NCBI RefSeq assembly: GCF_015711645.1
Contig: NZ_JABTEX010000001.1
Span: 1,984,001 to 2,048,000 of the forward strand
Direction of reading: 5' to 3'
Source of the DNA: Planomonospora sp. ID82291
GTDB taxonomy: Bacteria; Actinomycetota; Actinomycetes; Streptosporangiales; Streptosporangiaceae
Length of the DNA stretch: 64,000 bases
The notes under the pieces are model-generated. The model saw nothing but the letters and a program-made list of their open reading frames with translations. It had not been told where the DNA came from and made no database searches. Of this stretch, positions 14,773 to 31,766 are shown piece after piece. Each line of letters opens with the position of its first letter. Position 1 is the first letter of the stretch. The position numbers and the translations under genes were made by a program.

Positions 14773-16203
14773 CTACGCGACGTCGGGCCGGGTCATCAGC
14801 GGCGACCGCAGATGCACCACCAGATCGGGGCCGGTCAGGGGCACGGTGTTCCACGTCGCGACCGCCGTGCCCGCGGCGGCGTCGAGCGTCAGCCGGACCC
14901 GGTGCGGGGTGGTGATGACGTAGAGGTCGGCGGTGAACGTATCCCCCCGCCAGGCGCCGGCCGCGACGACCGGACGGCCGAGTGGCGAGCTCTCCCGCCA
15001 GCCGCCATGGCCGGCCTCGACGTCGAAGGACGACCCGAACCGCAGGAGCCATCCGCCGTCCACGGGATCGACGGTCACCGTGGTCCCGTCGGGCAGCGCC
15101 GCGTCCTCGGCGGAGGCGTCGAGCCGCGCCTTGGCCGAACGCTCCGGGGCGGCCGAACCCGGAACCGGCGCGAGGGACAGCCGCCGCAGCCGACCGGCGA
15201 GGAGCTCGTCGTCGCGGGCGCTCCCCGCCCGGTCCAGACCGGGCAGCAGGCATTCCCACAGAGGACTGAGCACTTCCTCGATCTGCGTCACCGCACCGGT
15301 CACGGCGACCACGAGATCGTGCGACGGGACGACCGCGCACAGCTGGCCGAAGGCGCCTTGGCCGTGGTAACCGTGACGCGACATCCAGAACTGGTAGCCG
15401 TATCCGCACAGCGCGTCGGGGTTCTCCGACCAGCCCTCGATCTGCGGGGTGTCGATGTGCCGTCGGGTCGCGAGCTCCACCCATTCGCGCGGGACGAGCT
15501 CGCGGCCGTCCCAGAGGCCCCCGCGCAGCAGCAGTTCGCCGAAGGCGGCGACGGCCTCGGTCGTGAGGTGCAGCCCGTGGAAGCCGAAGGCGGCGCCGCT
15601 CGCCACCCGGTCCCACTCGGCGTGGTCGACGCCCATCGGCCGGAAGAGGCGCTCGTCGAGCAGCTCCGGCAGCCCGCGGCCGGTGACCCGCTCCACCATC
15701 CGGGCCAGGACGAAGGTGGTCGCGTTGTCGTAGGCGTGCCGGGTCCCCTCAGGCGCGGGGAACGGTACGCGCAGGAAGCCCTTGACCAGATCGCCCGGTT
15801 CCAGCCGCCAGGCCTCGTCGAGGCTGTCCGTGCCGTGCCCGGCCGTCATGGACAGCAGGTGGTGCACGGTCAGGCGGCGTCCCTGCTCGGAGACGTCGGC
15901 CGGAACGTGGTCGGGCAGCACGTCCACCACCCGGTCGTCCAGCGAGAGCAGCCCGTCAGCGATCGCGAGCCCCACGGCGACCGAGGTGAACGACTTGGTC
16001 AGCGAGTAGAGCAGGTGCGGGCGTCCGGCCGAGTACGGAGCCCACCAGCCTTCGGCGACGACGTGACCGCGGCGCACGATCATGATCGAGTGGAGCTCGA
16101 CGGACCGCTCTTCGAACCGGTCCAGCAGCGCGGCGATCGAGCGGGACGAGATCCCCGCGGACGCCGGTGTCGAGCGCGGCAGCAGGGCACGCGGAGAGGG
16201 CAT
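14773..16203 (-). CDS. Serine hydrolase of the beta-lactamase/penicillin-binding-protein-like family
   Basis: A 476-aa class C beta-lactamase-fold hydrolase. Ser67-L-T-Lys70 is the SxxK motif, YDN near residue 160 is the YxN motif, and GYGYQFWMSRHGYHGQGAFG near ~295-315 supplies the third motif region. A beta-rich C-terminal domain follows. No signal peptide is visible, so it is probably cytosolic. Members include esterases, D-amino-acid amidases and peptidases; the substrate cannot be told. It lies 212 bp downstream of the NRPS/PLP operon on the same strand, so a maturation or self-protection role is possible but unproven. Confidence 0.85.
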   Translation of the reverse strand: MPSPRALLPRSTPASAGISSRSIAALLDRFEERSVELHSIMIVRRGHVVAEGWWAPYSAGRPHLLYSLTKSFTSVAVGLAIADGLLSLDDRVVDVLPDHVPADVSEQGRRLTVHHLLSMTAGHGTDSLDEAWRLEPGDLVKGFLRVPFPAPEGTRHAYDNATTFVLARMVERVTGRGLPELLDERLFRPMGVDHAEWDRVASGAAFGFHGLHLTTEAVAAFGELLLRGGLWDGRELVPREWVELATRRHIDTPQIEGWSENPDALCGYGYQFWMSRHGYHGQGAFGQLCAVVPSHDLVVAVTGAVTQIEEVLSPLWECLLPGLDRAGSARDDELLAGRLRRLSLAPVPGSAAPERSAKARLDASAEDAALPDGTTVTVDPVDGGWLLRFGSSFDVEAGHGGWRESSPLGRPVVAAGAWRGDTFTADLYVITTPHRVRLTLDAAAGTAVATWNTVPLTGPDLVVHLRSPLMTRPDVA

Positions 16204-16420: not shown

Positions 16421-17480
16421 GCCCTCCGATCAGTGAGCACTCCCGCACCTCGCCGGCGTCCGGGCGGACCGCCACGTTGCCGCCGGAGAGGACGGCCGCC
16501 ACGGGCCCGGCGGGCAGCGCGGCCCGGTGGGCGAAGTAGGCCGCGGCGGCCACCGCGCCGCTGGGCTCGGCGCGTTCCCCCAGGTCCCGCCAGAGGACGT
16601 CGGCGGCGGCCTCGATGCCGTCCTCGCTCACGGTCACCATGTCGTCCACGTACCGGCTGATGTGCTCCCAGGCCAGAGCGCCCAGGACCGGGGCGCGCAG
16701 GCCGTCGGCCCGGGTGCGGTAGGTCTGCTGCACCGGCCACGCGGTGCGCCGGCCCGAGCGGAAGCTGGCCGCGCCGTCGGCGGCCAGCTCGGGCTCGACG
16801 CCGATCACCCGGACCGCCGGGGCGACGGCCTTGGCCGCGACCGCGATCCCGGCCAGCAGGCCGCCGTTGCAGACCGGCACCAGGATCGTGCCGACGCCGG
16901 ACAGGTCCAGGCCGATCTCGGCCCCGGCGCTGCCGTGCCCGGCGATGACGTCGAAATCGTCGGAGCGGACCACCGTCGCCGCGAGCCGGTCGGCCAGGGC
17001 CAGGCAGGTGACCTCCCGCAGCGCCGGTGGCACGATCACCACCTCGGCACCGAGCCCGCGGGCGGCCGCCACCTTCAGTTCCGGCGCGGTGTCGGGCAGG
17101 ACCACGGTCGCCCGCAGGCCGTACCGTCCGGCGGCGTACGCGACGGCCTGGGCGTGGTTCCCGGAGGACTGGGCGATGACGTGCCCGACGCCCCGCTCGG
17201 CCAGCCGCCCCACGGCGTTCAGCGCGCCCCGCACCTTGAACGAGCGGGTGGGCTGCCGGTTCTCGGGCTTGATCCAGAGCCGTTCGCCCGGCAGGCGCAG
17301 CAACGGCGTGCGCCGTACGAACGGCGCGATCCGGATCGCGGCGGCGGTCACGTCGGCCGCCGCCACCAGGCCCGTCTCCCCGTCCAGCAGGCTCGCCTCT
17401 CCCGCCACCAGGCTCATCTCCCCGTCCAGCAGGCTCGCCTCTCCCGCCACCAGGCCCGTCTCCCCGTCCAGCGGCCTCAT
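16416..17480 (-). CDS. Fold-type-II PLP enzyme (serine/threonine dehydratase, hydroxyaspartate lyase or racemase family)
   Basis: A 354-aa protein. PLP-binding Lys82 lies in RSFKVRGALNA, followed by the substrate-loop SSGNHAQAVA and the glycine phosphate-cup around CNGGLLAG. The family includes threonine dehydratase, threo-3-hydroxyaspartate ammonia-lyase and serine/aspartate racemases; no ACT domain is present, which argues against biosynthetic IlvA. The ATG overlaps the NRPS-B stop codon (ATGA), giving translational coupling and tying it to the peptide pathway. The first ~40 residues are a tandem duplication of (E)ASLLDGE(T/M)(G/S)LVAG-type units absent from normal family members. Confidence 0.88.
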   Translation of the reverse strand: MRPLDGETGLVAGEASLLDGEMSLVAGEASLLDGETGLVAAADVTAAAIRIAPFVRRTPLLRLPGERLWIKPENRQPTRSFKVRGALNAVGRLAERGVGHVIAQSSGNHAQAVAYAAGRYGLRATVVLPDTAPELKVAAARGLGAEVVIVPPALREVTCLALADRLAATVVRSDDFDVIAGHGSAGAEIGLDLSGVGTILVPVCNGGLLAGIAVAAKAVAPAVRVIGVEPELAADGAASFRSGRRTAWPVQQTYRTRADGLRAPVLGALAWEHISRYVDDMVTVSEDGIEAAADVLWRDLGERAEPSGAVAAAAYFAHRAALPAGPVAAVLSGGNVAVRPDAGEVRECSLIGGP

Positions 17481-20400
17481 CTCTCCAGCACCTCGGCCTG
17501 GATGGCGTCCAGATCCGCCGCGGCCTCGGGCGGCGGGGCGGCGTCGGGGACCAGGTCCTCCAGGCGGTGCAGCGGGCGGTACCGCAGCCCGAGCAGCCCC
17601 CAGGCCACCAGGAACACGCCGCTGACCAGCAGTACCGCCGCCGCGCCCCGGCCCGGTCCGGAGACGTGCTGCTGGGCCCAGTCGGCCAGCGGGCCCGCGG
17701 CCAGGAAGCCCAGCGGCTGCATGGCCGTGGCCAGCATGACGTTGACGGCCAGCACCCGGCCCTGCAGTTCCGGCCCCACCTTCACCTGGATGATGGACAG
17801 CCAGTGCGCGTTGCCGATGCTCATGCAGGCCAGCCGGAGGAACAGACCGGCCGCGATCAGCCACACCGCCGGCCAGGCGCCCATCAGCACCACGCCGACG
17901 CCGGATCCGATCACGAAGCCGACCATGCCGGTGGCGCGGCGCCGGGTCCCGCCCCAGACCAGCACCACCCCGGTGCCCACGGCCGCGCCGAGGCCGCCGA
18001 CCGCGGTCACCGTCCCCAGGGCGGCCGGAGAGCCGATGGCCAGCACGACCGGGGTGATCAGCACCCACATCAGCGCGGTGCAGAAGTTGACCACCGCGAA
18101 GTAGAACGCCATCACCAGCAGCGGCCGGCGCCGGTTCAGGAACCTCCAGCCGCCGGTCAGCGCCGCGCGGAACGTCTCCTCCTGCCGGTGGAACAGCCGG
18201 TCGGGGAAGCGGACCGCCAGCAGCGTCACCACGCCCACCCCGAACGAGACCACGTCGATGGCCACCACTGCCGAGAGCCCGAACACGCCGATCAGCGCGC
18301 CGCCGGCGAGCGGCGCCACCACGTTGCCGATCCCGAAGCCCAGGTTGGCCAGGGCGTTGGCCTGCGGGAGGTACGGCTTGGGCACCAGCTGTGCGATCGC
18401 GGCCAGGTAGGCGGGTTGCTGGAACGCGGTGACCATCGAGGTGACGCCGACGATGGCGCACACGCTCCACAACTCCAGCCGTCCGGTGACCAGCAGCAGC
18501 ACCAGCGCCGCCGTGACCAGTCCGGAGACCGCGTCGCAGGCCAGCATGACCCGCCGCCGGTCCACCCGGTCGGCCAGCGCGCCGCCCAGCGGCGTGAGGA
18601 TCACCGCCGGGATCTGGGAGAGCATCACGATCAGGGCCAGGTCCAGGATCCGGCCGCTGAGCTGGTAGGCCCAGACACCGAGGGCGAACGAACTCAGCGC
18701 CGTGCCCACCGCCGACACGAACTGCCCGCCCGCCACGGTGTAGAAGGGGCGCAGGCCGGTCCGCTCGGGTGGACGCACCGGGTCGGGCAGCCGTCCCGAC
18801 GACCAGCGCAGCAGGTGCTCGACCACCAGGGCGGCCAGCGGTTCGGCCTGGTGCCGCAGGAAGTAGTGGCCGGCGCGGGGCAGCACGGCCGGTTCCACCC
18901 GGGGCGCGAAGACCGCCCACTCGGCGTACCGCTCCTCGTGCAGCTCGGTGGCCCGGTCCCGTTCCCCCACCACGCACAGGATCGGGGCGCGCAGCGGCGC
19001 CCCGCCCCCGGTCAGCTCGCGGCCGAACCACTCCCGCGCCTCGGTCGCGTCGTGGCGCATCGCCCGCACCGCGGCGCGCACCGCGGCCTCGTCCATGTCG
19101 TCCTGCAACCCGCCCGTGGCCCGCAGCGCGTCCCGGTACATCCGGTCGGAGACCCAGCGGTCGCCGCGGAAGAACCGCCGGGTCAGGCCGGGCAGCCGCT
19201 CGGCGGCGGGGAAGCTGCCGCCCGCGATCACCCCCAGGACGGGGACCCCGTCCGCCTCCAGCCTGCGAGCCAGGGCCACCGCGAGCGCGGAGCCCACGCA
19301 GTGGCCGTAGACCGCGATCGGCCGGGACGCCGTACCGGACACCTCGGCGGCCAGGATCTCCACCAGCCGCTCCAGCGGCAGCGGCGCCTCGTCCGGCCGG
19401 GCCGGATCGTGTCCGGGCAGCTCCGCCGCGAGCACCTCCACCCGGTCGCCCAGCGCCCGGGCCAGCGGCTGGTACACCGCCGCCGACCCGCCGCCGTACG
19501 GCACGCACACCAGGGTGAACTCGCTGGTACGGCCCCCGCCCAGACGGTGCAGGAGCCCGCCCCCGTCCTCGTCCCCGAGGAAGGCCGCCAGCTCCGCGAC
19601 CGTGGGCCGGGTGAACAGGTCGATCACCCGCAGCCCGCCGCCGATCTCCTTGACCGCGCGCACCGCGGCGAAGGAGTCCCCGCCCAGGGCGAAGAAGTCG
19701 TCGTGCGCCCCGACCTCGGCCACGCCGAGCACCCGGGCCCACACCCGGGCGACCAGTTCCTCGGCGGCGGTGGACGGCGGCACGAACGCGACGGTCTCCG
19801 GTTGCGGCTCGGGCAGGGCCGCCCGGTCGATCTTCCCGTTCGGGTTGAGGGGGAGCCGGTCGAGTACGACGAACTGGGTGGGCACCATGTAGTCGGGCAG
19901 CCGCTCCCGCAGCGCGGACCGGACCGCCGCCGTGTCCACGACGCCCCGGAGATCCCGGACGTCTCCGGCGTCGCCGATCGCTCCGGCGTCCCCGGCCTGC
20001 CCGGCGTCCCCGCCGACGTCCTCAGCGCTCCCGGCGCTCCCGGCGCTCCCGGCGCTTCCGGCGTCCCCAGCACTTCCGACACTTCCGGTGCTCTCGGTGC
20101 TCCCGGTGCTCCCGGTGCTCCCGGCACTTCCGGCCGACGGGGTCACCCAGGCGGCGAGCTGCCGGGCCCTGCCCTCGCCCACCGGCAGCACCACGGCCTC
20201 GGCGATCTGGGGCAGGGCCCGCAGCGCGGTGACGACCTCGCCCAGCTCGACCCGGTACCCGCGCACCTTGACCTGGTCGTCCACCCGGCCGCGGAACTCC
20301 ACCTGCCCGTCGGCCGTGACCCGCAGCAGGTCGCCGCTGCGGTAGCAGCGCCCCCGCCCGGTCAGCGGGTCGGGCACGAACCGCTCCGCGGTCAGCTCGG

Positions 20401-23400
20401 GCAGGCCGATGTAGCCGCGGGTGACCCCCGGGCCGCCGACCACCAGCTCCCCCGGCACACCGGGCGGCACCGGCCGCAGCCTCGCGTCCACCAGGTGCCC
20501 GTACACCCCCGGCAGCGGCCGGCCCAGCGGGACGATCCCGGCCCGGCGCGCGGGCTCGATCTCCTCGGTCTCGCAGACCAGGCAGATCATCGTGGACTCG
20601 GTGTGCCCGTAGTGGCTCTGGATCCGCAGCCCGGGCCGCGCGGCCCGGGCCCGTTCCACCAGGTCCCACGGGCAGGCCTCCCCGGCCAGGATCAGCAGCT
20701 TCTCCGGCAGCACCGCGGCCAGGTCGCCGCCCGAGGCCAGCAGCTCCAGGTGGCTGGGCACGCATTTGACCACGTCGACGCGGTGCGCGCTCAGATATCC
20801 GGCGAACGCGTCGGGGTCCATCGCGGTCTCCCGCGGCACCAGGTGCACCGTACCGCCCGTGGTCAGCGCACCGAACACGCAGGTGAGCCCGAAGTCGGCG
20901 GCGGGTGTGGAGACCACCGCGTACGAGCCGCCCGGCACCCCGATCCGCGGCAGCATGCCGCTCAGGTAGCTCGTCACGCCCGCGTGCTCGACGGCCACGG
21001 CCTTGGGCGTGCCGGTGGACCCGGAGGTGAAGATCACGTGGTGCAGGTGCTCGGGCCGCACGTCGGTCTCCGGCCGGGTCTCCGGCAGGGACGGCAGGCG
21101 GTCCAGTTCCAGCACCCGGCGGCCCGGCCCGATCAGACCGGCGAACCCGGCCGTGGTGATCACGGCCCGCACCCCGGCGGCGTCGAGCATGGCGGCGATC
21201 CTCGCGGCCGGATAGGCCGGGTCCATCGGCAGGTAGCCGCCGCCCGACTTCTGGATCCCGAACAGGGCGCAGGCCAGGCCCGCCCCCGGTTCCAGCAGCA
21301 CGCCGACCGGCTCGTCGGCGCCCACCCCGGCGGCCAGCAGCCAGTGGGCGATCCGGTTGGCCGCCGCCTCCAGCTCCGCGTAGGTCAGGCTGCGGTCCGC
21401 GCCCACCACGGCCGGCGCGTCGGGGGAGGCGTCCACCCAGCGTTCGATCAGCCGGTGCACCGGGACGCCCGTCGCGGTCGGCGGCCGTCCCGCCACCCCG
21501 CCGGACACCGTCGGAGCACCGGACACCGTCGGAGCACCGGACACCGTCGGAGCGTCCGCCGCATCCGGCAGCAGGTCCCCGGCGATGACCGGGCCCGTCA
21601 CCGGCTCCAGCGGCTGCGCGCCCACGGGGGCGTCCAGATCGGCCAGCATCCCGTCCAGCAGCGCCAGGTACCACCGGGTGAGGCGGGCCGCCGTGGCCGC
21701 GTCGAACAGGTCGGTGCGGTAGCCGAGCCCGCCGCGCAGCGGCCGGTCGGGCCCGTCGTCGACCACGTACCAGTTCAGGTCGAACTTCGCCGTCCGCTCG
21801 GGCGGCTCGATCCCGGTCGCCTCCAGACCGGGCAGCTCCGGCCGTCCCGCGCCGGGGACGTAGTTCAGCATCACCTGGAACAGCGGGGTCGCCGACAGGT
21901 TCCGCTCCGGCCGCAGCCGGTCCACCACCCGGTCGAACGGCGCGCTCGCGTGGGCGAAGGCGCCCAGCGCGGACTCCCGGACCCGGGCCAGCAGCTCCCG
22001 GCCGGTCGGGTCGCCGCCCACGTCGGTGCGGACCACCACCGTGTTGAGGAAGCACCCCACCACGCCCTCGGTGGCGGGGTGGTCCCGGCCGGCGACCGGC
22101 ACGCCGACCGCGATGTCGTCACCCGCCGCCAGCCGGGACAGCAGGGCCTGCAGGGCGGCCAGCAGCACGATGAACGGCGTCGCCCGGCAGGCGGCGGCCA
22201 CCGCCCGGACCCGCTCGCTCAACTCCGCCGGCAGCTCCAGGTCCACCGAGGCGCCGCCCGGATCGGCCACCGCGGGGCGCGGCCGATCGGTGGGCAGGTC
22301 CAGCACCGGCGGCAGGCCGCGCAGCCGCTCGGCCCACCAGTCCAGTTCGGCCAGGTCGGGGACCGGTGCCACCTCGGCGTACTGGGCCGGCGGCGGCTCC
22401 GGCGGCGGGCGCAGCCCGAGCCGGGCGGCGTACAGCGCGGCCAGCTCGGACAGCAGCAGCCCGCGGGTCCAGGCGTCGGTGGCGATGTGGTGGAAGGTGA
22501 GCGAGAGCACGTGCTCGGTGTCGCCGATCTTGAGCAGCACCGCCCGCATCGGCGGTTCGCGGTCCAGCGCGAACGGCGTGGCCAGGTGCGCGGCCACGGC
22601 GTCCTCGACGTCCTCGGCGCGCTCGACGTCCTCGGCGTCCTCGACGTCCTCGGCGCGCTCGCCCTCCGGTCGGCCGACCCGGACCGTGGACACCGGCACG
22701 TCCTCGGCCGGCCGTACCACCAGGACCGGTTCGGCGCCGGAGTCGTCGATCACGCTGCGCAGCACGTGGTGCCGCTCGGCCAGGTCCCGCACCGCGCCCA
22801 GCAGCGCCTCCGCCTGGAGCGGCCCGCGCAGCCGCAGCGCCACCGGCACGTTGTAGGCCGCGCTCTCCGGCTCCAACTGGGCCAGGAACCAGAGCCTGGC
22901 CTGCACCCCGGACAGCGGGACCGGCCCGTCCGCCCGCTCCCGGCGTACGGCGGGCGCCGCGACCGGGTGGGGCAGGGCGGCGGCCAGATCGGCGAGCACC
23001 GGGTGCTCGAACAGCAGCCGCACCGCCACCGGCGCGCCCAGGCGCTCCCGCAGCCTGCCGACCACCCGGGTCGCGGCGAAGGAGTGCCCGCCCAGGGCGA
23101 AGAAGTCGTCGTCCGCCCACACCTGCGGCAGGTCCAGCACCTCGGCCCAGACCTCGGCGACCAGGCGCTCCCGCGGCGTGCCCGGCGGCACCCGCACCGC
23201 CGGAGCGGTCTCGGGGACCGGCAGCGCCGCCCGGTCCACCTTGCCGTTCGGGGTGAGCGGCAGCGCGTCCAGCACGCCGATCGCGGACGGCACCATGTAG
23301 TCGGGCAACCGCTCGCGCAGCGCGGCCCGGACCGCCGCGACGTCCACGCCGTCCACGCCGTCCGCGACGCCCGCCGCGCTCTCCGCGTCGCCGGCGTCCC

Positions 23401-26182
23401 CGGCGACCCCGGCGACCCCGGCGACCCCGGCGACCCCGGCGACCCTGACATCCCCGGCGTCCCCGCGGAAGGGAGTCACCCAGGCCGCCAGGCGGCGCCG
23501 CGCCCCGGAGCCGACCGGCTGCACGAAGGCCTCCGCCACCTGCGGCAGGGACCGCAGCGCGGCGGTGACCTCACCGAGCTCCACCCGGAACCCGCGCACC
23601 TTCACCTGGTCGTCCGTCCGGCCCAGGAACTCCACCAGCCCGGCCGGGTTCACCCGCACCAGGTCCCCGGTGCGGTACCAGCCGTCCGTGAACCGCTGCG
23701 CCGTCAGGTCGGGCCGTCCCAGGTAGCCGCGGGCCACCCCGGGGCCGCCGATCCGCAGCTCCCCCGGCACGCCGTACGGCAGCGGCCGCCCGGCGGGGTC
23801 CGTCACCCGGCACCGCACGCCGGGCAGCGGCCGGCCCAGCGGCGCCGCGCCGGATGCCGTCTCGGCCCCGTCGCAGCCCAGTGCCGACACCGTGGTCTCG
23901 GTGGGCCCGTAGTGGATCTGCACCTCCAGGGACGGCCGCGCCGCCCGCACCTGCTCCACCAGGTCCCGCGGCACGGCCTCGCCCGCCAGGATCAGCAGCC
24001 GCTCCGGCAGCACCGCGGCCAGGTCGCCGCCCGAGGCGAGCAGCTCCAGCTGGCTGGGCACCATCTTGACCACGTCCACCGGGTGCGCGGCCAGGTGGGC
24101 GGCGTACGCGGCCGGGTCGGTGGCCGTCTCGTGGTCGACGAGGTGCAGGGCGGCGCCCGAGGTCAGCGCGCACAGCACGTTGGTCAGCCCCAGGTCGGCC
24201 GCGGCGGTGGACACCAGCGCGAAGGAGGCGGCCCCCTCGGGCAGGCGCCCGGCCACCGCGTCCAGGTAGTGGGTGATCTGCCGGTGCTCGACCGCGACGC
24301 CCTTCGGCTCCCCGGTGGAGCCCGACGTGGAGATCACGTACGCCAGGTGGTCCGGCGGCACGGCCACCTCCGGGCGGTGCGCGGGCCCGTCCGCGGCGTC
24401 GGCGAGCCCGGCCTCGGTGAGCACCGTCCGGACGCCGGCGGCGGCCAGGACGGCCTCGGTCCGCCGCGCCGGGTAGACCGGGTCCAGCGGCAGGTAGGCC
24501 GCACCGGCCTTGAGCACGCCCAGCAGGGCGACCGCCAGCTCCGGCCGCCGCTCCATCAGCACTCCGACCGGCTCCTGGGGCCGCACGCCGCGGGCCAGCA
24601 GCCAGTGCGCCACCTGGTTGGCCCGCCGCTCCAGCTCTGCGTAGCGGATCGGCGCGCGGCCGGGCGACACGACCGCGACCGCGTCGGGGGAGGCGTCGGC
24701 CGCCCGCTCGATCAGCGCGTGCAGCGGCGCGCCCGCCGGCGGGCGCGCGGCCGGGCCGTGCAGGTCGGGGTCGGCGGGCAGCAGGACCGGCGCGTCCGGG
24801 TCCGTGAGCATCCCGTCCAGCAGCGTCAGGTACCAGTCCACCAGCCGCCGGACGGTCGCCTCGTCGAACAGGTCGGTCCGGTAGCGCAGCTCTCCGGCGA
24901 ACCGGTCCCCCTCGTCGCCGAGCGTCAGGTTCAGGTCGAACTTGGCCGTCGGCACGGCCGGCGGCTCCGGCCGGACCTCCACGCCGGGCAGGGCCGGCGG
25001 CGCGCCCGCGTCGTACACGTTGAGCATCACCTGGAACAGCGGGGTGACCGACAGGTTCCGCTCCGGCCGCAGCCGCTCCACGATCCGCTCGAACGGCGTG
25101 CGGGCGTGCGCGAACGCGTCCAGCGCGGCCGCGCGGGCCCGGTCCAGCAGTTCGGCGCCGGTGGGGTCGCCGGAGGTGTCGGTCCGCACCACCAGGGTGT
25201 TGATGAAGCAGCCCACCACGCCCTCGGTGTCCGGGTGGCGGCGGCCGGCGTCCGGCACCCCGACGGCGATGTCGTCGCCGCCGGACAGCCGGGACAGCAG
25301 CGCCTGCAGACCGGCCAGGAACACCATGAACGGCGTGGTGCCCGCCACCGCGCGCACCTTGGCGGACAGCGGGCCGGGCACCGCGAACGCGACCGCGGCC
25401 CCCTCCCAGGTGGGGACGGCCGGGCGGGGCCGGGCGACGGGCAGCTCCAGCACCGGCGGCAGACCGGCCAGGCGCCGCGTCCACCAGTCCAGGTCCTCCT
25501 CGGACGGCCCGGCCGCGGCCTCCCACGCGGCCACGTCGGCGTACTGCAGGGCCGGGGGCTCCGGCTGCGGCGCCAGGCCGAGCCGGGCGGCGTAGAGCGC
25601 CGCGAGGTCCTGCAGCAGCAGCCGTTCCGACCAGGCGTCGGTGGCGATGTGGTGGAAGGTGAGCGAGAGCACGCACTCGTCCCCGCCGAGCCGGAACACC
25701 GCCGCCCGCATGGGGGGTTCGGCGTCCAGCCGGAACGGGCGCCAGGCGTGGCCGGCCAGCTCCCGCTCCAGCGCCGCGGGCTCCACGTCGACCACGGAGA
25801 CGGGCACGCCGCCGACCGGCCGGATCCGCGTCCCGTCGACGACGCCGCGCAGGATCCAGTGCCGCTCGGCCAGGTCGGCCACCGCGGCGGTGAGGGCCGC
25901 GACGTCCACCGGCCCGCTCAGCCGCAGCACCAGCGGCACGTTGTAGGCGGGGGTGTCCGGCTCCAGCTGGGCCAGGAACCACAGCCTCTCCTGGGCCGGG
26001 GACAGCGGCATGTCCGCCGCCGACAGCGCCGGGATGCCCGCGGCGCCGGGGTATCCGGTGCCCTCCGGAGTCCCGGGGGTGCCGGGGGTCCCGGGGGTGC
26101 CGGGGGTCTCTGCGGCGGCGCGGGCCGCGGCGAACCGGGACCGGACCGCGTCGGCGATCCGGTCCTGAGTGACCTCGGTCAT
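17477..26182 (-). CDS. NRPS-B: C-A-T-C-A-T-TE fused to an MFS transporter
   Basis: 2901 aa. The order is C1 (HHIATDAW near 175-180), A1 (STSGSTGEPKG near 615), T1 (GGHS near 1032), C2 (HHIATDAW near 1230), A2 (FTSGSTGTPK near 1717), T2 (GGDS near 2167), thioesterase (YGHCVGS with Cys2295 where Ser is usual), then ~420 residues with about 12 membrane helices and the MFS motif GGALADRVDRRRVM. NRPS-MFS fusions are known in actinomycetes; the Cys nucleophile is uncommon. Stachelhaus-type readout by eye gives D-L-T-K-I-A-H-V-S-K and D-F-T-K-I-A-H-M-I-K, closest to aspartate codes. Linkers carry simple-sequence repeats. The start overlaps the NRPS-A stop by ATGA. Confidence 0.95.
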   Translation of the reverse strand: MTEVTQDRIADAVRSRFAAARAAAETPGTPGTPGTPGTPEGTGYPGAAGIPALSAADMPLSPAQERLWFLAQLEPDTPAYNVPLVLRLSGPVDVAALTAAVADLAERHWILRGVVDGTRIRPVGGVPVSVVDVEPAALERELAGHAWRPFRLDAEPPMRAAVFRLGGDECVLSLTFHHIATDAWSERLLLQDLAALYAARLGLAPQPEPPALQYADVAAWEAAAGPSEEDLDWWTRRLAGLPPVLELPVARPRPAVPTWEGAAVAFAVPGPLSAKVRAVAGTTPFMVFLAGLQALLSRLSGGDDIAVGVPDAGRRHPDTEGVVGCFINTLVVRTDTSGDPTGAELLDRARAAALDAFAHARTPFERIVERLRPERNLSVTPLFQVMLNVYDAGAPPALPGVEVRPEPPAVPTAKFDLNLTLGDEGDRFAGELRYRTDLFDEATVRRLVDWYLTLLDGMLTDPDAPVLLPADPDLHGPAARPPAGAPLHALIERAADASPDAVAVVSPGRAPIRYAELERRANQVAHWLLARGVRPQEPVGVLMERRPELAVALLGVLKAGAAYLPLDPVYPARRTEAVLAAAGVRTVLTEAGLADAADGPAHRPEVAVPPDHLAYVISTSGSTGEPKGVAVEHRQITHYLDAVAGRLPEGAASFALVSTAAADLGLTNVLCALTSGAALHLVDHETATDPAAYAAHLAAHPVDVVKMVPSQLELLASGGDLAAVLPERLLILAGEAVPRDLVEQVRAARPSLEVQIHYGPTETTVSALGCDGAETASGAAPLGRPLPGVRCRVTDPAGRPLPYGVPGELRIGGPGVARGYLGRPDLTAQRFTDGWYRTGDLVRVNPAGLVEFLGRTDDQVKVRGFRVELGEVTAALRSLPQVAEAFVQPVGSGARRRLAAWVTPFRGDAGDVRVAGVAGVAGVAGVAGDAGDAESAAGVADGVDGVDVAAVRAALRERLPDYMVPSAIGVLDALPLTPNGKVDRAALPVPETAPAVRVPPGTPRERLVAEVWAEVLDLPQVWADDDFFALGGHSFAATRVVGRLRERLGAPVAVRLLFEHPVLADLAAALPHPVAAPAVRRERADGPVPLSGVQARLWFLAQLEPESAAYNVPVALRLRGPLQAEALLGAVRDLAERHHVLRSVIDDSGAEPVLVVRPAEDVPVSTVRVGRPEGERAEDVEDAEDVERAEDVEDAVAAHLATPFALDREPPMRAVLLKIGDTEHVLSLTFHHIATDAWTRGLLLSELAALYAARLGLRPPPEPPPAQYAEVAPVPDLAELDWWAERLRGLPPVLDLPTDRPRPAVADPGGASVDLELPAELSERVRAVAAACRATPFIVLLAALQALLSRLAAGDDIAVGVPVAGRDHPATEGVVGCFLNTVVVRTDVGGDPTGRELLARVRESALGAFAHASAPFDRVVDRLRPERNLSATPLFQVMLNYVPGAGRPELPGLEATGIEPPERTAKFDLNWYVVDDGPDRPLRGGLGYRTDLFDAATAARLTRWYLALLDGMLADLDAPVGAQPLEPVTGPVIAGDLLPDAADAPTVSGAPTVSGAPTVSGGVAGRPPTATGVPVHRLIERWVDASPDAPAVVGADRSLTYAELEAAANRIAHWLLAAGVGADEPVGVLLEPGAGLACALFGIQKSGGGYLPMDPAYPAARIAAMLDAAGVRAVITTAGFAGLIGPGRRVLELDRLPSLPETRPETDVRPEHLHHVIFTSGSTGTPKAVAVEHAGVTSYLSGMLPRIGVPGGSYAVVSTPAADFGLTCVFGALTTGGTVHLVPRETAMDPDAFAGYLSAHRVDVVKCVPSHLELLASGGDLAAVLPEKLLILAGEACPWDLVERARAARPGLRIQSHYGHTESTMICLVCETEEIEPARRAGIVPLGRPLPGVYGHLVDARLRPVPPGVPGELVVGGPGVTRGYIGLPELTAERFVPDPLTGRGRCYRSGDLLRVTADGQVEFRGRVDDQVKVRGYRVELGEVVTALRALPQIAEAVVLPVGEGRARQLAAWVTPSAGSAGSTGSTGSTESTGSVGSAGDAGSAGSAGSAGSAEDVGGDAGQAGDAGAIGDAGDVRDLRGVVDTAAVRSALRERLPDYMVPTQFVVLDRLPLNPNGKIDRAALPEPQPETVAFVPPSTAAEELVARVWARVLGVAEVGAHDDFFALGGDSFAAVRAVKEIGGGLRVIDLFTRPTVAELAAFLGDEDGGGLLHRLGGGRTSEFTLVCVPYGGGSAAVYQPLARALGDRVEVLAAELPGHDPARPDEAPLPLERLVEILAAEVSGTASRPIAVYGHCVGSALAVALARRLEADGVPVLGVIAGGSFPAAERLPGLTRRFFRGDRWVSDRMYRDALRATGGLQDDMDEAAVRAAVRAMRHDATEAREWFGRELTGGGAPLRAPILCVVGERDRATELHEERYAEWAVFAPRVEPAVLPRAGHYFLRHQAEPLAALVVEHLLRWSSGRLPDPVRPPERTGLRPFYTVAGGQFVSAVGTALSSFALGVWAYQLSGRILDLALIVMLSQIPAVILTPLGGALADRVDRRRVMLACDAVSGLVTAALVLLLVTGRLELWSVCAIVGVTSMVTAFQQPAYLAAIAQLVPKPYLPQANALANLGFGIGNVVAPLAGGALIGVFGLSAVVAIDVVSFGVGVVTLLAVRFPDRLFHRQEETFRAALTGGWRFLNRRRPLLVMAFYFAVVNFCTALMWVLITPVVLAIGSPAALGTVTAVGGLGAAVGTGVVLVWGGTRRRATGMVGFVIGSGVGVVLMGAWPAVWLIAAGLFLRLACMSIGNAHWLSIIQVKVGPELQGRVLAVNVMLATAMQPLGFLAAGPLADWAQQHVSGPGRGAAAVLLVSGVFLVAWGLLGLRYRPLHRLEDLVPDAAPPPEAAADLDAIQAEVLER

Positions 26183-29100
26183 GCGTCGCTCCCGTTCGTC
26201 AGTTCAGCGAAGATCAGTTCTTCCAGCGCGGCGGCGAAGTCGGCGAGCACCGGCCGCTCGAACAGCAGCCGCACCGGAACGGTCACCAGCAACGTCTCGC
26301 GGAGCCGGCCGACCACCCGGGTCGCGGCGAAGGAGTGCCCGCCCAGGGCGAAGAAGTCGTCGTCGGCCCAGATCGGGGAGCGCTCCAGCACGGCGCTCCA
26401 GACGGCGGCCACCAGGCGTTCGGGGTCGGTGCCGGGTGCGACGCGCCCGGCACCGGGGTCGTCGGCCGGGTCGGGCAGGGCCCGCCGGTCCACCTTGCCG
26501 TTGGGCAGGGTGGGCAGGGCCGGCAGCGTCACCCACCGCCGGGGCACCATGTGGCCGGGCAGCCGCGACCGCAGATGCCGCTCGGCCGCGGCCGGGTCGG
26601 CCGTCTCCGGCGCGAGGTAGCCGACCAGGTGGGCCTGCGCGTCCGCACCGGCCACGGCCACCGTCCCGTCGGCCACCTCGCGCAGCACCGCCTCGATCTC
26701 GCCCAGCTCGATCCGGTACCCGCGCACCTTCACCTGGTGGTCCCTGCGGCCGTGGAACTCCAGCGTCCCGTCCGGCCGCCGGCGCACCAGGTCGCCGGTC
26801 CGGTAGCACCGGCCGCCGGGGGTGAACGGGTCGTCGACGAACGCGGCCCCGGTCAGGTCGGCCCGCCCCCGGTAGCCCCGGGTCACCCCGGCGCCGCCCA
26901 GCAGCAGCTCGCCCACCGCGCCCGGCGGCACCAACCGCAGCGCGGAGTCGACCACGTAGGCCCGTTCCCCGGGCATCGGCAGCCCGATCGGCACCGGGCC
27001 CGGCTCGTGCGGGCGGACCCGGTGCTGGATCGAGGCGACGGTGGCCTCGGTGGGGCCGTAGGTGTTCCACAGCTCCCGGACCCGGGGCAGGATCCGCCCG
27101 GCCAGGGCCGGATCGAGGGTCTCCCCGCCCGCGATGGCCAGCAGCCCCGGGTCTCCCGCCCAGCCCGCGGCCAGCAGCATCCGGTAGGCGGTGGGCACCA
27201 GGTCGACCACCGTGGCCCCGCACTCCGCGATCCGCCCGGCCAGCGCGTGCCCGTCCACCGCCGTGGCCCGGTCCACCACCACGCAGGTGCCACCGACGCT
27301 CAGCATGCTCCACAGCTCGGACGCGGAGGTATCGAAGGTCAGGGGCGCCACGACCGGCTGGACGTCCCCGGGTCCCAGTCCCAGTTCGGACGTCAGTCCC
27401 GCCACGTAGGCGGCCAGGTTGCCGTGGGTGACCTCCACGCCCTTGGGCGTCCCGGTGGAGCCGGAGGTGTACAGCACGTAGGCCAGGTCCCCGGCCCGCA
27501 CCTCCGGCAGCTCCGCCGACCCGCCGCGGGCGGCCAGGTCGTCCGCGTCCAGCACGATGAGACCGGGCGCGGCCGCCGCGTCCGGCACGCTGACGCCGGG
27601 TACGGCCGCCGCGTCCGGCACGCTGACGCCGGGTACGGCCGCCGCGTCCGGCACGCTGAGACCGGGTACGGCCGCCGCGTCCCGCACCTTGACGCCGGGT
27701 ACGGCCGCCGCCGCCCCGCCCCGGGTGAGCACCACGCGCGCCCCGGCGTCCTCGGCCAGCAGGCGCAGCCGCTCGGCCGGATGCTCCGGATCCAGCGGCA
27801 GGTACGCCGCGCCCGCCCGCCAGACCGCCAGCAGCGCCGCCGGCATCAGGTGGTCCCGGGGCAGGCAGACGCCCACCACCTCGCCCGGCGCCACGCCGTA
27901 CTCCAGCAGCGCCGCCGCCACCCGGCCCGACCACTCGTGCAGTTCCGGATAGCCGATCGAAGCGCCGTCCGGCCCGACCACGGCGGTCCCGCCGGTATGG
28001 GCGGCCAGCGCGTGCGGCACCGTCTCGGGGAACTCCGGCACCGCCGGTCCGGCCGCGGTGGCCAGCAGGGCGGCGCGTTCGTCCGGCGTGACGAGTTCGA
28101 AGGCCGACAGCGGCCGGTCCGGGTCGGCCGGCGCGCACCGCAGCAGCCACATCAGCCGGTCCAGGTACGCCTCGGCCCGCACCGGGTCGAGGCGGGCCAG
28201 GGCGTACTCCAGCTGCAGCTCGGCGCCGTCCGCCGTCCGGTTGACCAGGACGGCGAGCTCGTGGCCGGTGGCGCCCGACCCCAGGTCGGTGAGGAGTTCC
28301 AGGCCGCCCAGGCGCACCGGCACCTCGGCGTGCTGCACCGCCAGCAGCACCGGCGCGCGGGGCAGGTCCTCGACGGGGACCTCCTGGTGGACCAGCGCCC
28401 GCGTGGCCGCGTCGGCGGCCTGCCGGACCAGGTCCCGGAAGGTCGGCGCGCCGGCCGGCCGCACCCGCACCGGCAGCGTGTCCACCAGCGGGCCGATGAC
28501 CCCGGTCAGCTCCGGCCGGGCCCGCCGCGCCGCGACCACCCCGACCAGCGTGTCGGGCTCGCCGCCGGCCAGGGCCAGCCCGGCCAGGTACACCGCGAAC
28601 GGCGTGACCCCGCACTCCCGGGCCAGCGCGTCCACGCCCGCCTCGAACTCCCCGGACAGCGGCCGGATCACCCGGCCGGCCGTCAGGTCCGCCGGCGCCG
28701 GGTCCGCCACCGGCGCCCCGGCCAGCTCCTCCCGCCAGAACTCCCGCAGCCGCACCGGGTCCGGCCGCTCCTGCTCCTGCACGGCCACGTCGCCGAACTG
28801 GACGGCCGGCCCGGGGACCGGCTCGCCGGCCAGCTCGGCGGCCAGCTCGCCCATCAGCACCGCGACCGAGCCGCCGTCGAAGGCGAGGTGGTCCACCACG
28901 ACCACCAGCTCGGCCTCCGCCGCGCCCAGCCAGCACAGCTCGGCCCGGAGCAGCGGCACCTCGCCCGTCAGGTCGAACACGTGCGCCGCGGCGGTCCTGG
29001 CCACCTTCTCCGGGTCCTCGCCCACGGGGTGCTCGACCAGCGGCACGGCCACCAGCGGGCGCACCACGGCGTACGGCACGCCGTCCGCGTCGACGGCGAT

Positions 29101-31089
29101 CGTGCTGCGCAGCACCTCGTGCCGGCGCACGACCGCGTCCAGGGCCGCCCTCAGCGGCGCGGCCTCCCGCAGACCGCGCACGCGCAGCCGGATCGCCAGC
29201 GTGGTGACCGGGCTGTGCGGGTGGAGCCGGCTCAGGGTCCAGAACTGGCGCTGCATGCCGGTGAGCGGATACCGGGTCCGGCCGCTCCGCCGTACCGCCT
29301 CCGGACCGGCCCGGTCCAGCGCCGCGGCCAGACCGGCCGCGGTGGGGGCGGCCAGGAAGTCCGCCAGGGGCACGGTCCGCCCCAGCCTGCGGGACAGCTC
29401 GGTGACCACTCTGGCCGCGGCCAGGGAGTGGCCGCCCAGGTCGGTGAACCGGTCGTGCACGCCGACCCGGGGCAGGCCGAGCACGCCGGCGACCACCTCC
29501 GCCACCAGCCGCTCGTCCTCGGTGCGGGGCGCGACCGGCGCCGCGCCGGCCGGCCGGGCGGCGCCCAGCGCGGGCAGGGCCGCCCGGTCCACCTTGCCGT
29601 TGGGGGCGAGCGGGAGCTCCTCGGCCACGCCGATCCGGGTCGGTACCAGGTGGTCGGGCAGCCGGGCGCGCAGCCAGTCCCGCAGCTCCGGCTCGCCCAC
29701 CCCGGAGGCCGCGACGTGACCGGCCAGGTAGGCGGTCCCGTCGTCGTCCGCGGCGGCCAGCACGACGGCCCGGCGCACCGCGGGGTGGCGGCCCAGCACG
29801 GCCTCCACCTCGCCCGGCTCCACCCGGTAGCCGCGGATCTTGACCTGGTCGTCGGCCCGGCCCGCGTAGTGCAGCGCGCCGTCCACCCGGCGGACCAGGT
29901 CGCCGCTGCGGTAGACCCGGGCGCCGTCCGGCCCGGTGCGGAAGGCCGGCGACTCGCGCCCGAGGTAGCCGCGGGTCACCCCGGGCCCGCCGATCCACAG
30001 CTCACCCAGCTCGCCGTCCGGGACGGGGTTCCCGTCCGCGTCGCGCACCGAGAGCACCGCACCGGCCATCGGCGCGCCGAGCGGCGGGTCGCCCTCGTGG
30101 TCCCGGCCCACCTCCGCGACGGTGCAGGAGGTGGTGCACTCGGTCGGGCCGTACAGGTTCAGCACCCGGCGCACCCCCGGGTTGGCGTAGATCCGCCGGA
30201 CCAGGGCGCCGGTCAGCCGCTCGCCACCGGAGAAGACCGCGCGCACCCCGCTCGGCAGCGGCTCGCGCAGCAGCACCGCCAGCGCGGAGGGGACCCCGTA
30301 GACCGTGGTCACCTCCTCCCTCGCCGGCAGGGTCGGCAGCGCCAGCACGTTGTCGGCCAGGATCACCGTCCCACCGGTGATCAAGGGCAGGAAGAGCTGG
30401 GTGATCGACGCGTCGAAGCAGACGGAGGCGCCGGCCAGCATGCCGCGCAGCTCCTCGGCGGTGTACGCCGACGCCTCCCAGTTCAGCAGGTTCATGGTGT
30501 TGCGGTGCTCCACCACCACGCCCTTGGGCGTCCCGGTGGAGCCGGAGGTGTAGATGACGTACGCCGCGTCCCCCGGGTCCCCCGGGTCCCCCGCCACCCG
30601 GAAAGCCCCCCCGCCCGGCTCCACGTCGTCGACGAGTACGGCCTCGGCCCCGGTCAGGGCGGCGGTACGGCGCAGCGCGGCCGAGGTGACCACCGCGGCC
30701 ACCGCGGCGTCCTCGGCCATGAACCGCAACCGCTCGGCCGGGTAGGCGGGGTCCAGCGGCACGTAGGCCGCGCCCGACTTCCACACGCCCACCAGCGCCG
30801 GGACCAGCCACGCGTCGCGTTCCAGGCAGACGCCGACCAGGTCGCCGCGCCCGATGCCGCGCCCGGCCAGGGTGCGTGCGACGTCGTCGGCCCTGCGGTC
30901 CAGTTCGGCGTAGCCGAGGCGGTCGGTGCCCGCCACGACGGCGACGCGCTCCGGAGTGCGCCGGGCCTGCGCCTCTATCGCCTCGTGGACGCGACCCGGC
31001 GCTCCGGTCCCCGCGGTCCCCGCGGCCCCCCCGGCCTCCGCCGGGGCGGGACGGCCCGCCGCGTCGATGCGTTCCCTGTCAACGGTCAC
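26179..31089 (-). CDS. NRPS-A: A-T-C-A-T initiation and first elongation modules
   Basis: 1636 aa from GTG 31089, chosen for GGAGAAGAGG just upstream; an in-frame ATG at 31176 would add 29 residues. A1 (YTSGSTGTPKG near 181) has no preceding C domain, so this is the loading module. T1 (GGHS near 551), a C domain with DHLAFDG in place of HHxxxDG (catalytic second His kept, near 733), A2 (YTSGSTGTPKG near 1208) and T2 (GGHS near 1584) follow. Pocket readouts (D-A-T-Y-F-G-L-T-S-K and D-T-S-D-I-G-T-V-A-K) match nothing I trust. A2 carries an 11-residue tandem insert between its early core motifs. No MbtH gene is in the window. Confidence 0.94.
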   Translation of the reverse strand: MTVDRERIDAAGRPAPAEAGGAAGTAGTGAPGRVHEAIEAQARRTPERVAVVAGTDRLGYAELDRRADDVARTLAGRGIGRGDLVGVCLERDAWLVPALVGVWKSGAAYVPLDPAYPAERLRFMAEDAAVAAVVTSAALRRTAALTGAEAVLVDDVEPGGGAFRVAGDPGDPGDAAYVIYTSGSTGTPKGVVVEHRNTMNLLNWEASAYTAEELRGMLAGASVCFDASITQLFLPLITGGTVILADNVLALPTLPAREEVTTVYGVPSALAVLLREPLPSGVRAVFSGGERLTGALVRRIYANPGVRRVLNLYGPTECTTSCTVAEVGRDHEGDPPLGAPMAGAVLSVRDADGNPVPDGELGELWIGGPGVTRGYLGRESPAFRTGPDGARVYRSGDLVRRVDGALHYAGRADDQVKIRGYRVEPGEVEAVLGRHPAVRRAVVLAAADDDGTAYLAGHVAASGVGEPELRDWLRARLPDHLVPTRIGVAEELPLAPNGKVDRAALPALGAARPAGAAPVAPRTEDERLVAEVVAGVLGLPRVGVHDRFTDLGGHSLAAARVVTELSRRLGRTVPLADFLAAPTAAGLAAALDRAGPEAVRRSGRTRYPLTGMQRQFWTLSRLHPHSPVTTLAIRLRVRGLREAAPLRAALDAVVRRHEVLRSTIAVDADGVPYAVVRPLVAVPLVEHPVGEDPEKVARTAAAHVFDLTGEVPLLRAELCWLGAAEAELVVVVDHLAFDGGSVAVLMGELAAELAGEPVPGPAVQFGDVAVQEQERPDPVRLREFWREELAGAPVADPAPADLTAGRVIRPLSGEFEAGVDALARECGVTPFAVYLAGLALAGGEPDTLVGVVAARRARPELTGVIGPLVDTLPVRVRPAGAPTFRDLVRQAADAATRALVHQEVPVEDLPRAPVLLAVQHAEVPVRLGGLELLTDLGSGATGHELAVLVNRTADGAELQLEYALARLDPVRAEAYLDRLMWLLRCAPADPDRPLSAFELVTPDERAALLATAAGPAVPEFPETVPHALAAHTGGTAVVGPDGASIGYPELHEWSGRVAAALLEYGVAPGEVVGVCLPRDHLMPAALLAVWRAGAAYLPLDPEHPAERLRLLAEDAGARVVLTRGGAAAAVPGVKVRDAAAVPGLSVPDAAAVPGVSVPDAAAVPGVSVPDAAAAPGLIVLDADDLAARGGSAELPEVRAGDLAYVLYTSGSTGTPKGVEVTHGNLAAYVAGLTSELGLGPGDVQPVVAPLTFDTSASELWSMLSVGGTCVVVDRATAVDGHALAGRIAECGATVVDLVPTAYRMLLAAGWAGDPGLLAIAGGETLDPALAGRILPRVRELWNTYGPTEATVASIQHRVRPHEPGPVPIGLPMPGERAYVVDSALRLVPPGAVGELLLGGAGVTRGYRGRADLTGAAFVDDPFTPGGRCYRTGDLVRRRPDGTLEFHGRRDHQVKVRGYRIELGEIEAVLREVADGTVAVAGADAQAHLVGYLAPETADPAAAERHLRSRLPGHMVPRRWVTLPALPTLPNGKVDRRALPDPADDPGAGRVAPGTDPERLVAAVWSAVLERSPIWADDDFFALGGHSFAATRVVGRLRETLLVTVPVRLLFERPVLADFAAALEELIFAELTNGSDA
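27571..27710. repeat. 33-bp tandem repeat inside the NRPS-A A2 domain
   Basis: About four copies of a 33-bp unit encode DAAAVPG(V/L)(S/K)V(P/R) repeats and keep the NRPS reading frame. It lies between core motifs A2 and A3, a surface region in known A-domain structures. Confidence 0.9.
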
Positions 31090-31766
31090 TTCGTCCTCTT
31101 CTCCAGCCGAGATCACACCCGGTGATGAGAAATCTCTGGAATCGTCTGATCGATCGGCGCCTATGGCCGAGAGCATGATTCAGCCGACTTGCGGCCGTCT
31201 TGCGATCGACTTGGGTTCGCGCCCACGGAGGCGGATATTCGTGTTTTCCCAGATGAACGCATCAGGGACCGTGGGAATGACGGATTCATCCGGCGCGGGA
31301 CCCGCGCCGACAAGTGTCCATAATATGAGAATCCGGGTTCCGGCGCGATCTCCTCCGCCCCCGTCCGCCACCGGGAGACGGGCGCGCGCGGCAGGTGCCC
31401 TCCGTCCAGAACCCCTTGTTCTCCGGGGTTCCAGCGGATGAGGGCCCCGGACGCCGCCCGGCCGCGCGGTCGCACCCGAGGGCCGCCACCCGGGTCCGGC
31501 GACCGGGCGGAGGGAAGCGGCATCCGTATCGAGAATGCGGCGTTCACCGCGGCGCCGGTCGTCTCCGGAACGGCGGAAACGACGGTCGGGTGGATGCGTC
31601 GATTCCATGGACGACAGCGGGAAAAGGGCGCCCGACAACGGCGGATAATCCGCGCGGACGATTTCGGCCAGCCGCACACGATGACGCTGCGGAATCCATC
31701 CCGTACTCGGCGTGGGCCTTCGCGAAAGGCGGATCTACGAGATCGCGGCCGAGCGGGCGGGGGCGG
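31090..31766 (-). other. Leader/promoter region of the NRPS operon
   Basis: No gene recognised in these 677 bp. On the minus strand TATTAT (31325-31320) is a good -10 hexamer about 230 nt before the NRPS-A start, but no clear -35 stands 16-18 bp upstream. The 5' leader would be unusually long. The left part is more AT-rich than the surroundings. Confidence 0.4.

Follow-up and report, generated by a model that had tools for sequence, protein, structure and literature searches.

What does a nonribosomal peptide synthetase (NRPS) release when its terminal thioesterase (TE) bears a Cys in place of the usual Ser nucleophile and runs on, within the same polypeptide, into an exporter of the major facilitator superfamily (MFS)? 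The question is raised by a gene pair, here called NRPS2 and NRPS1, in a 64,000-nucleotide stretch of the Planomonospora sp. ID82291 genome (contig NZ_JABTEX010000001.1, positions 1,984,001 to 2,048,000), which is referred to below as the window and to which all positions refer. A preliminary description of the window had taken the Cys and the attached MFS together as a possible sign of an unusual product, with strained-ring release in mind. The comparison with relatives argues otherwise: judged by the sequences, Cys plus MFS is a trait of a clade and not the signature of a product, and the pair is probably a self-contained two-gene tetrapeptide synthase, whose product would be released from a cysteine thioester and exported by its own pump.

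NRPS1 is a single minus-strand open reading frame (ORF) that opens with ATG on translation, and its start overlaps the NRPS2 stop by 4 bases. Its Pfam matches, all of them above the Pfam cut-offs, are Condensation, AMP-binding and PP-binding (two each), Thioesterase (E 4.5e-20), MFS_1 and MFS_3, and the domain order of both proteins, which was set by purpose-built domain hidden Markov models alongside Pfam, makes NRPS2 and NRPS1 a predicted four-module line. An ORF of 3017 aa overlaps NRPS1 on the plus strand (17567-26620); as the G+C content at third codon positions is 0.97 in the NRPS1 frame and 0.81 in this ORF, we take the minus frame as coding and the plus-strand ORF as the shadow of a high-GC gene. 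The 2901-residue NRPS with a TE and then a fused MFS, as first described, is borne out by translation, by Pfam and by its recurrence in other genomes, and an assembly error behind the TE-MFS fusion is excluded by the many genomes that have the same fusion.

The motif GHCVGS, with Cys2295 for the usual Ser, had also been read correctly. Neither a sequencing error nor chance can account for it, as GHCVGS is present in the other six members of the subclade of the window TE as well, and 119 of 127 fused TEs have Cys in that column. According to the alignment to ObiF1, the rest of the triad layout consists of Gly2322 at position I, Asp2409 at position II and His2439. The catalytic Asp is located on the later strand loop, position II, in ObiF1 and SulM, as in some type II enzymes (PMC6668435, PMC11298585), and the latter study describes an Asp after beta7, among NRPS TEs of known structure, only in ObiF1 and SulM. 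ObiF1 is also the nearest solved relative of the window TE by sequence, at 143 bits against 79 bits for the next match. With a structural model of the TE (mean predicted local distance difference test score, pLDDT, 78), Foldseek placed ObiF1 at the top (E 3.4e-17), followed by a bifunctional epimerising and cyclising TE and the SulM TE, and VIA-align gave a Z of 27.4 for ObiF1, with a root-mean-square deviation of 2.8 over 240 residues, 26.0 for RifR and 24.3 for SulM. Because RifR scores close behind ObiF1, fold alone cannot separate ObiF1 from the type II enzymes. The best match in both sequence and fold, together with the ObiF1/SulM triad layout, upholds the kinship with ObiF-type Cys TEs that had been suggested from the motif.

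The resemblance to the two Cys enzymes is nevertheless partial. The window protein is like ObiF1, the obafluorin synthetase of Burkholderia diffusa (PDB 6N8E; PMC6668435), in its GxCxG motif, its position-II Asp, its position-I Gly and its in-cis NRPS TE, but it ends in an MFS where ObiF1 ends in an MbtH-like domain, and its last adenylation (A) domain has an Asp-like code where ObiF1 loads a beta-hydroxy residue. With the SulM TE of sulfazecin (PDB 8W2C/8W2D; PMC11298585), it has the Cys nucleophile and the position-II Asp in common, whereas it reads His-Cys-Val in place of the Gln-Cys-Asn by which that study recognises the SulM type, has an Asp-like last A domain, and is only about 20% identical in structural alignments; moreover, no sulfotransferase is present among the window neighbours scanned.

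Type II TEs such as RifR and BorB have a fold and a position-II Asp like those of the window TE, and ObiF1 and SulM lie near them, clustering with type II TEs in the wider tree of PMC11298585, which calls for caution with the grouping presented here. RifR and BorB are, however, stand-alone Ser enzymes. In our tree (FastTree, 143 TEs, among them ObiF1, RifR and BorB, with no EntF-type TE and no SulM), a split with support 1.0 separates the fused TEs, L128, L129, ObiF1, L127, L130 and L132 from RifR, BorB and seven other TEs, in whose ORFs no NRPS domain was found. The phylogeny that had been proposed as a check thus places the window TE with ObiF1 and apart from the type II enzymes sampled; the placement of ObiF1 inside its group is weak (subgroup support 0.505). 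A type II hydrolase can therefore be ruled out, as such hydrolytic enzymes are stand-alone and use Ser, and the window TE is an in-cis domain with a Cys on the other side of the split.

The fusion itself recurs widely. In 100 genomes of the window's family, its own included, a search with the TE only yielded 102 hits of at least 125 bits, spread over 36 genomes; all 102 were fetched and examined, and 99 of them lie in one ORF with an MFS (92 Cys, 7 Ser). The remaining three are L134 (Cys), which meets the contig end just after the TE, and L128 and L129, which are Cys TEs without an MFS. After removal of identical or contained TE sequences and of those shorter than 180 aa, 127 distinct fused TEs were counted, with Cys as the nucleophile in 119 and Ser in 8, as read from the alignment columns. 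The position-II Asp and the catalytic His are present in all 127, with either Gly (88) or Ala (39) at position I. A sizeable fraction of the fused TEs, for example L075, L080 and L096, have one more residue in the nucleophile elbow (GHCGVG, GHCGLG, GHCGIG). Since the fused TEs, L134 included, form one clade in the 143-TE tree (support 0.992), the joining of TE to MFS probably happened once, and the unfused Cys TEs L128 and L129 are sisters of this clade (0.858). The simplest history is probably that of an older Cys nucleophile, one later MFS fusion and two later Cys-to-Ser changes. The TE and MFS distances are correlated (r = 0.85 over 8001 pairs from the 127 proteins, with shared ancestry not corrected for), as would be expected if both parts were inherited together.

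As far as sampled, the fusion seems mostly confined to the one family of the window. With E 1e-25 as the limit, a query with the TE-MFS part found matches in 72 of the 150 family genomes searched, a count that includes MFS-only matches. In a class-wide sample, TE matches at E 1e-28 or better were found in 12 of 197 genomes, eight of which, the window's own included, belong to the family; of the four outside it, G688 is fused and has Cys, G675 (Cys) runs into a contig end, and G501 (Cys) and G518 (Ser) lie in ORFs without an MFS. A phylum sample gave, outside the window's own genome, MFS matches only (2 of 395), which is weak as a sign of absence with only two candidates scored per genome. Relatives with a species name come from Microtetraspora glauca, Streptosporangium minutum, Planomonospora parontospora and Amycolatopsis orientalis, fused relatives also occur on Embleya and Streptomyces clavuligerus plasmid records, and the loci L009-L013 encode relatives too. 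The plasmid records H1 and H4 are unannotated in the stretch concerned.

The MFS_1 match of the fused domain (E 1.5e-30, 106.8 bits, cut-off 33.4) covers positions 2-345 of the 347 in the profile, MFS_3 matches residues 2487-2860 (E 2.8e-21, 76 bits, cut-off 27), and GGALADRVDRRR, which we take to be the MFS motif A, is present between helices 2 and 3. Across all 127 fused proteins, one Gly and the Asp of this motif are invariant, and the next residue is always Arg or Lys. The 12-helix transporter of the preliminary description is reasonable but not strictly shown, as twelve helices of at least 20 residues follow the TE in an AlphaFold model of the TE-MFS part, which is of low confidence (mean pLDDT 64), whereas a plain hydropathy scan of the MFS part gives nine clear peaks. 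Stand-alone MFS_3 exporters, presumably of the EntS type, are alike in their MFS_1 and MFS_3 matches and in motif A, and differ in that the window MFS is covalently joined to a synthetase. That release is coupled to export in one chain, as had been suggested, is a fair reading of this fusion, in which the MFS may act as a pump, an anchor or both. A role mainly as a membrane anchor of the synthetase, with transport left to other pumps, has a precedent in the cereulide system CesAB-CesCD, whose synthetase is bound to the membrane through an ABC transporter (PMC7527721); the window synthetase would likewise be tied to the membrane by a transporter, with the difference that the cereulide system relies on an ABC transporter and a protein-protein interaction, and the window on an MFS in one chain. 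We consider a mere anchor improbable, as it would need neither a motif A conserved over 127 fused proteins nor MFS_1 and MFS_3 matches well above cut-off.

To the question of what is released, the last A domain offers the most direct clue. The A codes were taken from an A-domain alignment at nine pocket positions, under the GrsA scheme and its customary code meanings. The last code of the window, DFTKIAHMI, is identical in all seven subclade members. A Lys at position 278, as in this code, usually marks an Asp/Asn-type pocket, and the pocket is predicted to be Asp-like, not Ser/Thr-like, and thus to load a residue without a beta-hydroxyl or beta-amine. The code of P2_A1 reads DATYFGLTS or DATYVGLTS, depending on the alignment. 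Of the fused proteins, 126 could be coded, L082 being left out for an incomplete A domain. The 118 coded Cys members comprise 88 with Lys at the 278 position, 24 with Ser-like codes, two with Cys-like codes and four others (one Gly-like, two DMGEIGAVD, one DVRNTGIMD), and the 8 Ser members have DTEDIG-type, basic-like codes (seven) or DAMSLGAVI (one), so that the last A domains of the relatives range over Asp-, Asn-, Ser-, Cys-, Gly- and basic (Arg)-like codes.

This range bears directly on a strained-ring release as in obafluorin, in which Cys2295 would close a beta-lactone from beta-hydroxy-Asp, formed with a hydroxylase in trans, and the pump would remove the reactive product. Such a release would fit with ObiF1 as the closest solved TE with the same triad layout, with the 24 Ser-like last codes, which are able to give a beta-lactone, and with the last codes of unfused Cys relatives, which read as Thr-like in L128 and L129 and as Ser-like in L127. 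We nonetheless regard it as hardly likely for the window, where the last code is Asp-like, as it is throughout the subclade, and where the two genes and the scanned ORFs next to them yielded no hydroxylase; furthermore, the Gly-like and basic-type last codes in the family cannot close such a ring. A beta-lactone product thus appears unsupported, because the last pocket is Asp-like and the last codes of the relatives are of many classes. Together with the clade-wide occurrence of the trait and the lack of a conserved tailoring gene beside the pair in the stretches covered, this speaks against Cys plus MFS as a sign of a strained ring or unusual product. Better candidates for an obafluorin-like beta-lactone release might be L128 and L129 (L128:743-4714 and L129:712-4785), which encode single-module proteins of condensation (C), A, carrier (T) and TE domains (C-A-T-TE) with Cys (GQCAG and GHCAG), no MFS, and the Thr-like last codes DMYNIGLIH and DMYNFGLIH.

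A second alternative is ordinary hydrolysis, by which the TE would free a linear tetrapeptide with a C-terminal Asp and the Cys would be an inherited, neutral relic. The Asp-like last residue, which has no obvious ring-closing group, would agree with this, as would the fact that Ser is tolerated at this site twice on the tree, namely in a clade of seven GHSSVG tips (support 0.997) and in L089. In both cases, these natural Ser variants of the fused clade (L052, which lies in the window's own genome, L092, L093, L097, L098, L125 and L155, besides L089 with GHSGPG) differ from the closest Cys members in the class of the last code, which does not suit a neutral exchange. In addition, the published Cys-to-Ser mutants of ObiF1 and BulbE mainly hydrolyse, and the SulM mutant forms its monobactam but then hydrolyses it (PMC6668435, PMC11298585, PMC11536411). 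Because such mutants mostly shift to hydrolysis, the retention of Cys in 119 of 127 fused TEs suggests selection against hydrolysis and points to a release step for which a thioester is required. Plain hydrolysis is therefore possible in our view, though rather doubtful. A last residue of predicted Asp, Asn, Ser or Cys type is found in 114 of the 118 Cys enzymes and in none of the 8 Ser enzymes, a contrast that is suggestive and not a test, because the Ser enzymes go back to only two changes on the tree and the Cys set has four exceptions. Nor is Cys tied to a four-membered ring, as the Cys TE of BulbE (bulbiferamides; PMC11536411), which like that of the window stands at an NRPS terminus, makes a 15-atom macrolactam; it differs from the window TE in its Asp at position I, and the parts of that report consulted mention no MFS.

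Taken together, we favour the two-gene tetrapeptide synthase with a Cys TE and a pump of its own. The sequences show the domain order, the Cys/His/Asp (position II) triad, a complete MFS domain that is in frame and has motif A, and a single clade. The last carrier would hand the tetrapeptide to Cys2295, forming a thioester that should be more reactive than a Ser ester to weak or constrained nucleophiles and that either an internal nucleophile of the peptide or water might resolve. The product, a small peptide with two Asp-like residues predicted at its end, would then leave the cell through the fused MFS exporter, and this exporter might also anchor the synthetase to the membrane. TE and pump would have been inherited as one unit since their probably single fusion, with the Cys probably older than the fusion.

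Several observations weigh against this proposal. Cys also occurs in two of the seven stand-alone TEs outside the ObiF1-containing group (L003 and L008), and within that group, L130 has Ser and L132 has Gly at the nucleophile position, so that the age of the Cys nucleophile is inferred and not proven. The specificity codes are predictions from GrsA positions, and DFTKIAHMI is not a textbook code. The Cys TEs of L069, L070, L071 and L114 have last codes that are not Asp-, Asn-, Ser- or Cys-like, and Cys thus maps onto no single chemistry. Lastly, the TE-MFS model is of low confidence, export is a prediction, and the main role of the fused MFS could be that of a membrane anchor. At the other extreme, we speculate that the clade might consist of 'make-activate-and-eject' machines, in which an ObiF-type Cys TE would free peptides with a last Ser, Cys, Asn or Asp, whose nucleophilic side chain lies beside the thioester, as small activated rings of the beta-lactone, thiolactone, succinimide or anhydride type, the attached pump would clear the reactive product before it harms the cell, and Ser would return when the last residue changes class; this is a long shot.

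Features of the NRPS2-NRPS1 gene pair, in window positions (A, adenylation; C, condensation; T, carrier domain)
Feature	Position	Strand	Description	Basis
NRPS1 gene	17477..26182	-	2901 aa, C-A-T-C-A-T-TE-MFS	
NRPS2 gene	26179..31176	-	1665 aa, A-T-C-A-T; start codon not proven	
First condensation domain of NRPS1	24785..26014	-	residues 57-466, motif HHIATDA	translation, Pfam
First carrier (T) domain of NRPS1	22973..23164	-	residues 1007-1070	Pfam
Last adenylation domain of NRPS1	20411..21445	-	residues 1580-1924, whole domain about 1570-2110, code DFTKIAHMI, predicted Asp-like	Pfam AMP-binding limits, pocket alignment
Thioesterase domain	18896..19516	-	residues 2223-2429	Pfam limits, model, fold searches
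Cys2295	19298..19300	-	nucleophile, in GHCVGS	translation, alignment
Gly2322	19217..19219	-	triad position I; EntF-type TEs have Asp there; aligns with ObiF1 Gly1173	alignment
Asp2409	18956..18958	-	triad position II (after beta7); aligns with ObiF1 Asp1254	alignment
His2439	18866..18868	-	catalytic His; aligns with ObiF1 His1284	alignment
Fused MFS exporter domain	17711..18733	-	residues 2484-2824, with presumed MFS motif A GGALADRVDRRR	Pfam

The surroundings of the pair were compared with those of its orthologues in L053-L057, whose main blocks are 72-88% identical to the window pair; the flanks covered extend a few kb on each side and up to 10 kb downstream in L009 (by their lengths and identical matches, L009 and L055 are one contig, as are L011 and L054). 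The order NRPS2-NRPS1 is kept in L053, L055, L056 and L057, which have both genes, and also in L054, which has only the NRPS2 end on its contig. Of 16 window genes searched in these stretches, none outside the NRPS pair was matched, and the flanking ORFs are not common among the orthologues. A beta-lactamase-family serine hydrolase (14773-16203, minus strand) adjoins the NRPS end; this protein, a GGDEF-EAL protein, a histidine kinase and a second MFS, which matches only fused MFS domains, at 27%, were considered as cluster parts and rejected, as no homologue was present beside the orthologues in the stretches covered, and they are probably not part of the system. No conserved tailoring gene, be it a hydroxylase, a sulfotransferase or another, is found beside the pair in the window and the orthologue stretches, and neither a hydroxylase nor a sulfotransferase is among the 20 window ORFs scanned with Pfam, six of which have no family match; the rest of the genome was not searched for the latter. 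The genome has six MbtH genes, none of them on the window's contig. An iron-regulated siderophore locus was rejected, as no IdeR/DmdR-like palindrome with up to three mismatches was found in the window, a result that does not argue against a metallophore. Upstream of the pair lies an IS630-family transposase (32984-33997, plus strand), which could bear on the pair's arrival. At 43-56 kb, the genes for DciA, a 6-phosphogluconate-dehydrogenase-like protein, YidC (60KD_IMP), ParA and ParB give the appearance that the window extends into the replication-origin region, and gyrA, gyrB, recF, dnaN and dnaA presumably stand among them, as placed by the first residues of their translations and not by a search.

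A related four-module NRPS pair is present in L058, L060, L061 and L062, that is, in four genomes of one genus, where it is flanked by two genes. In L058, on which alone Pfam was run, these (L058:1492-2926) encode a tryptophan 2,3-dioxygenase and an AsnC-type regulator; neither was seen in L059, a relative in another genus. The dioxygenase might point to a kynurenine-type building block, and as these pairs are flanked by dioxygenase and regulator genes, some relatives may have accessory genes.

No description of an NRPS TE-MFS fusion was found, by title and abstract, in open-licence PMC papers, and the A-code strings looked for had no match in PMC11253843. Public databases, we presume, may already list a product name such as 'NRPS/MFS transporter'. 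The domains and the TE lineage in the window are thus known ones, but their architecture and family are ones that we have not found described.

In this clade, a large number of NRPS lines combine synthesis, release and, as predicted, export in one polypeptide, and two genes can suffice for such a line. It raises the question of what role a Cys thioesterase plays where no four-membered ring is expected, and whether more product is made, or the producer is protected, when synthesis is joined to export. A ready-made comparison might be offered by the natural changes from Cys to Ser, which go along with a different class of last A domain.

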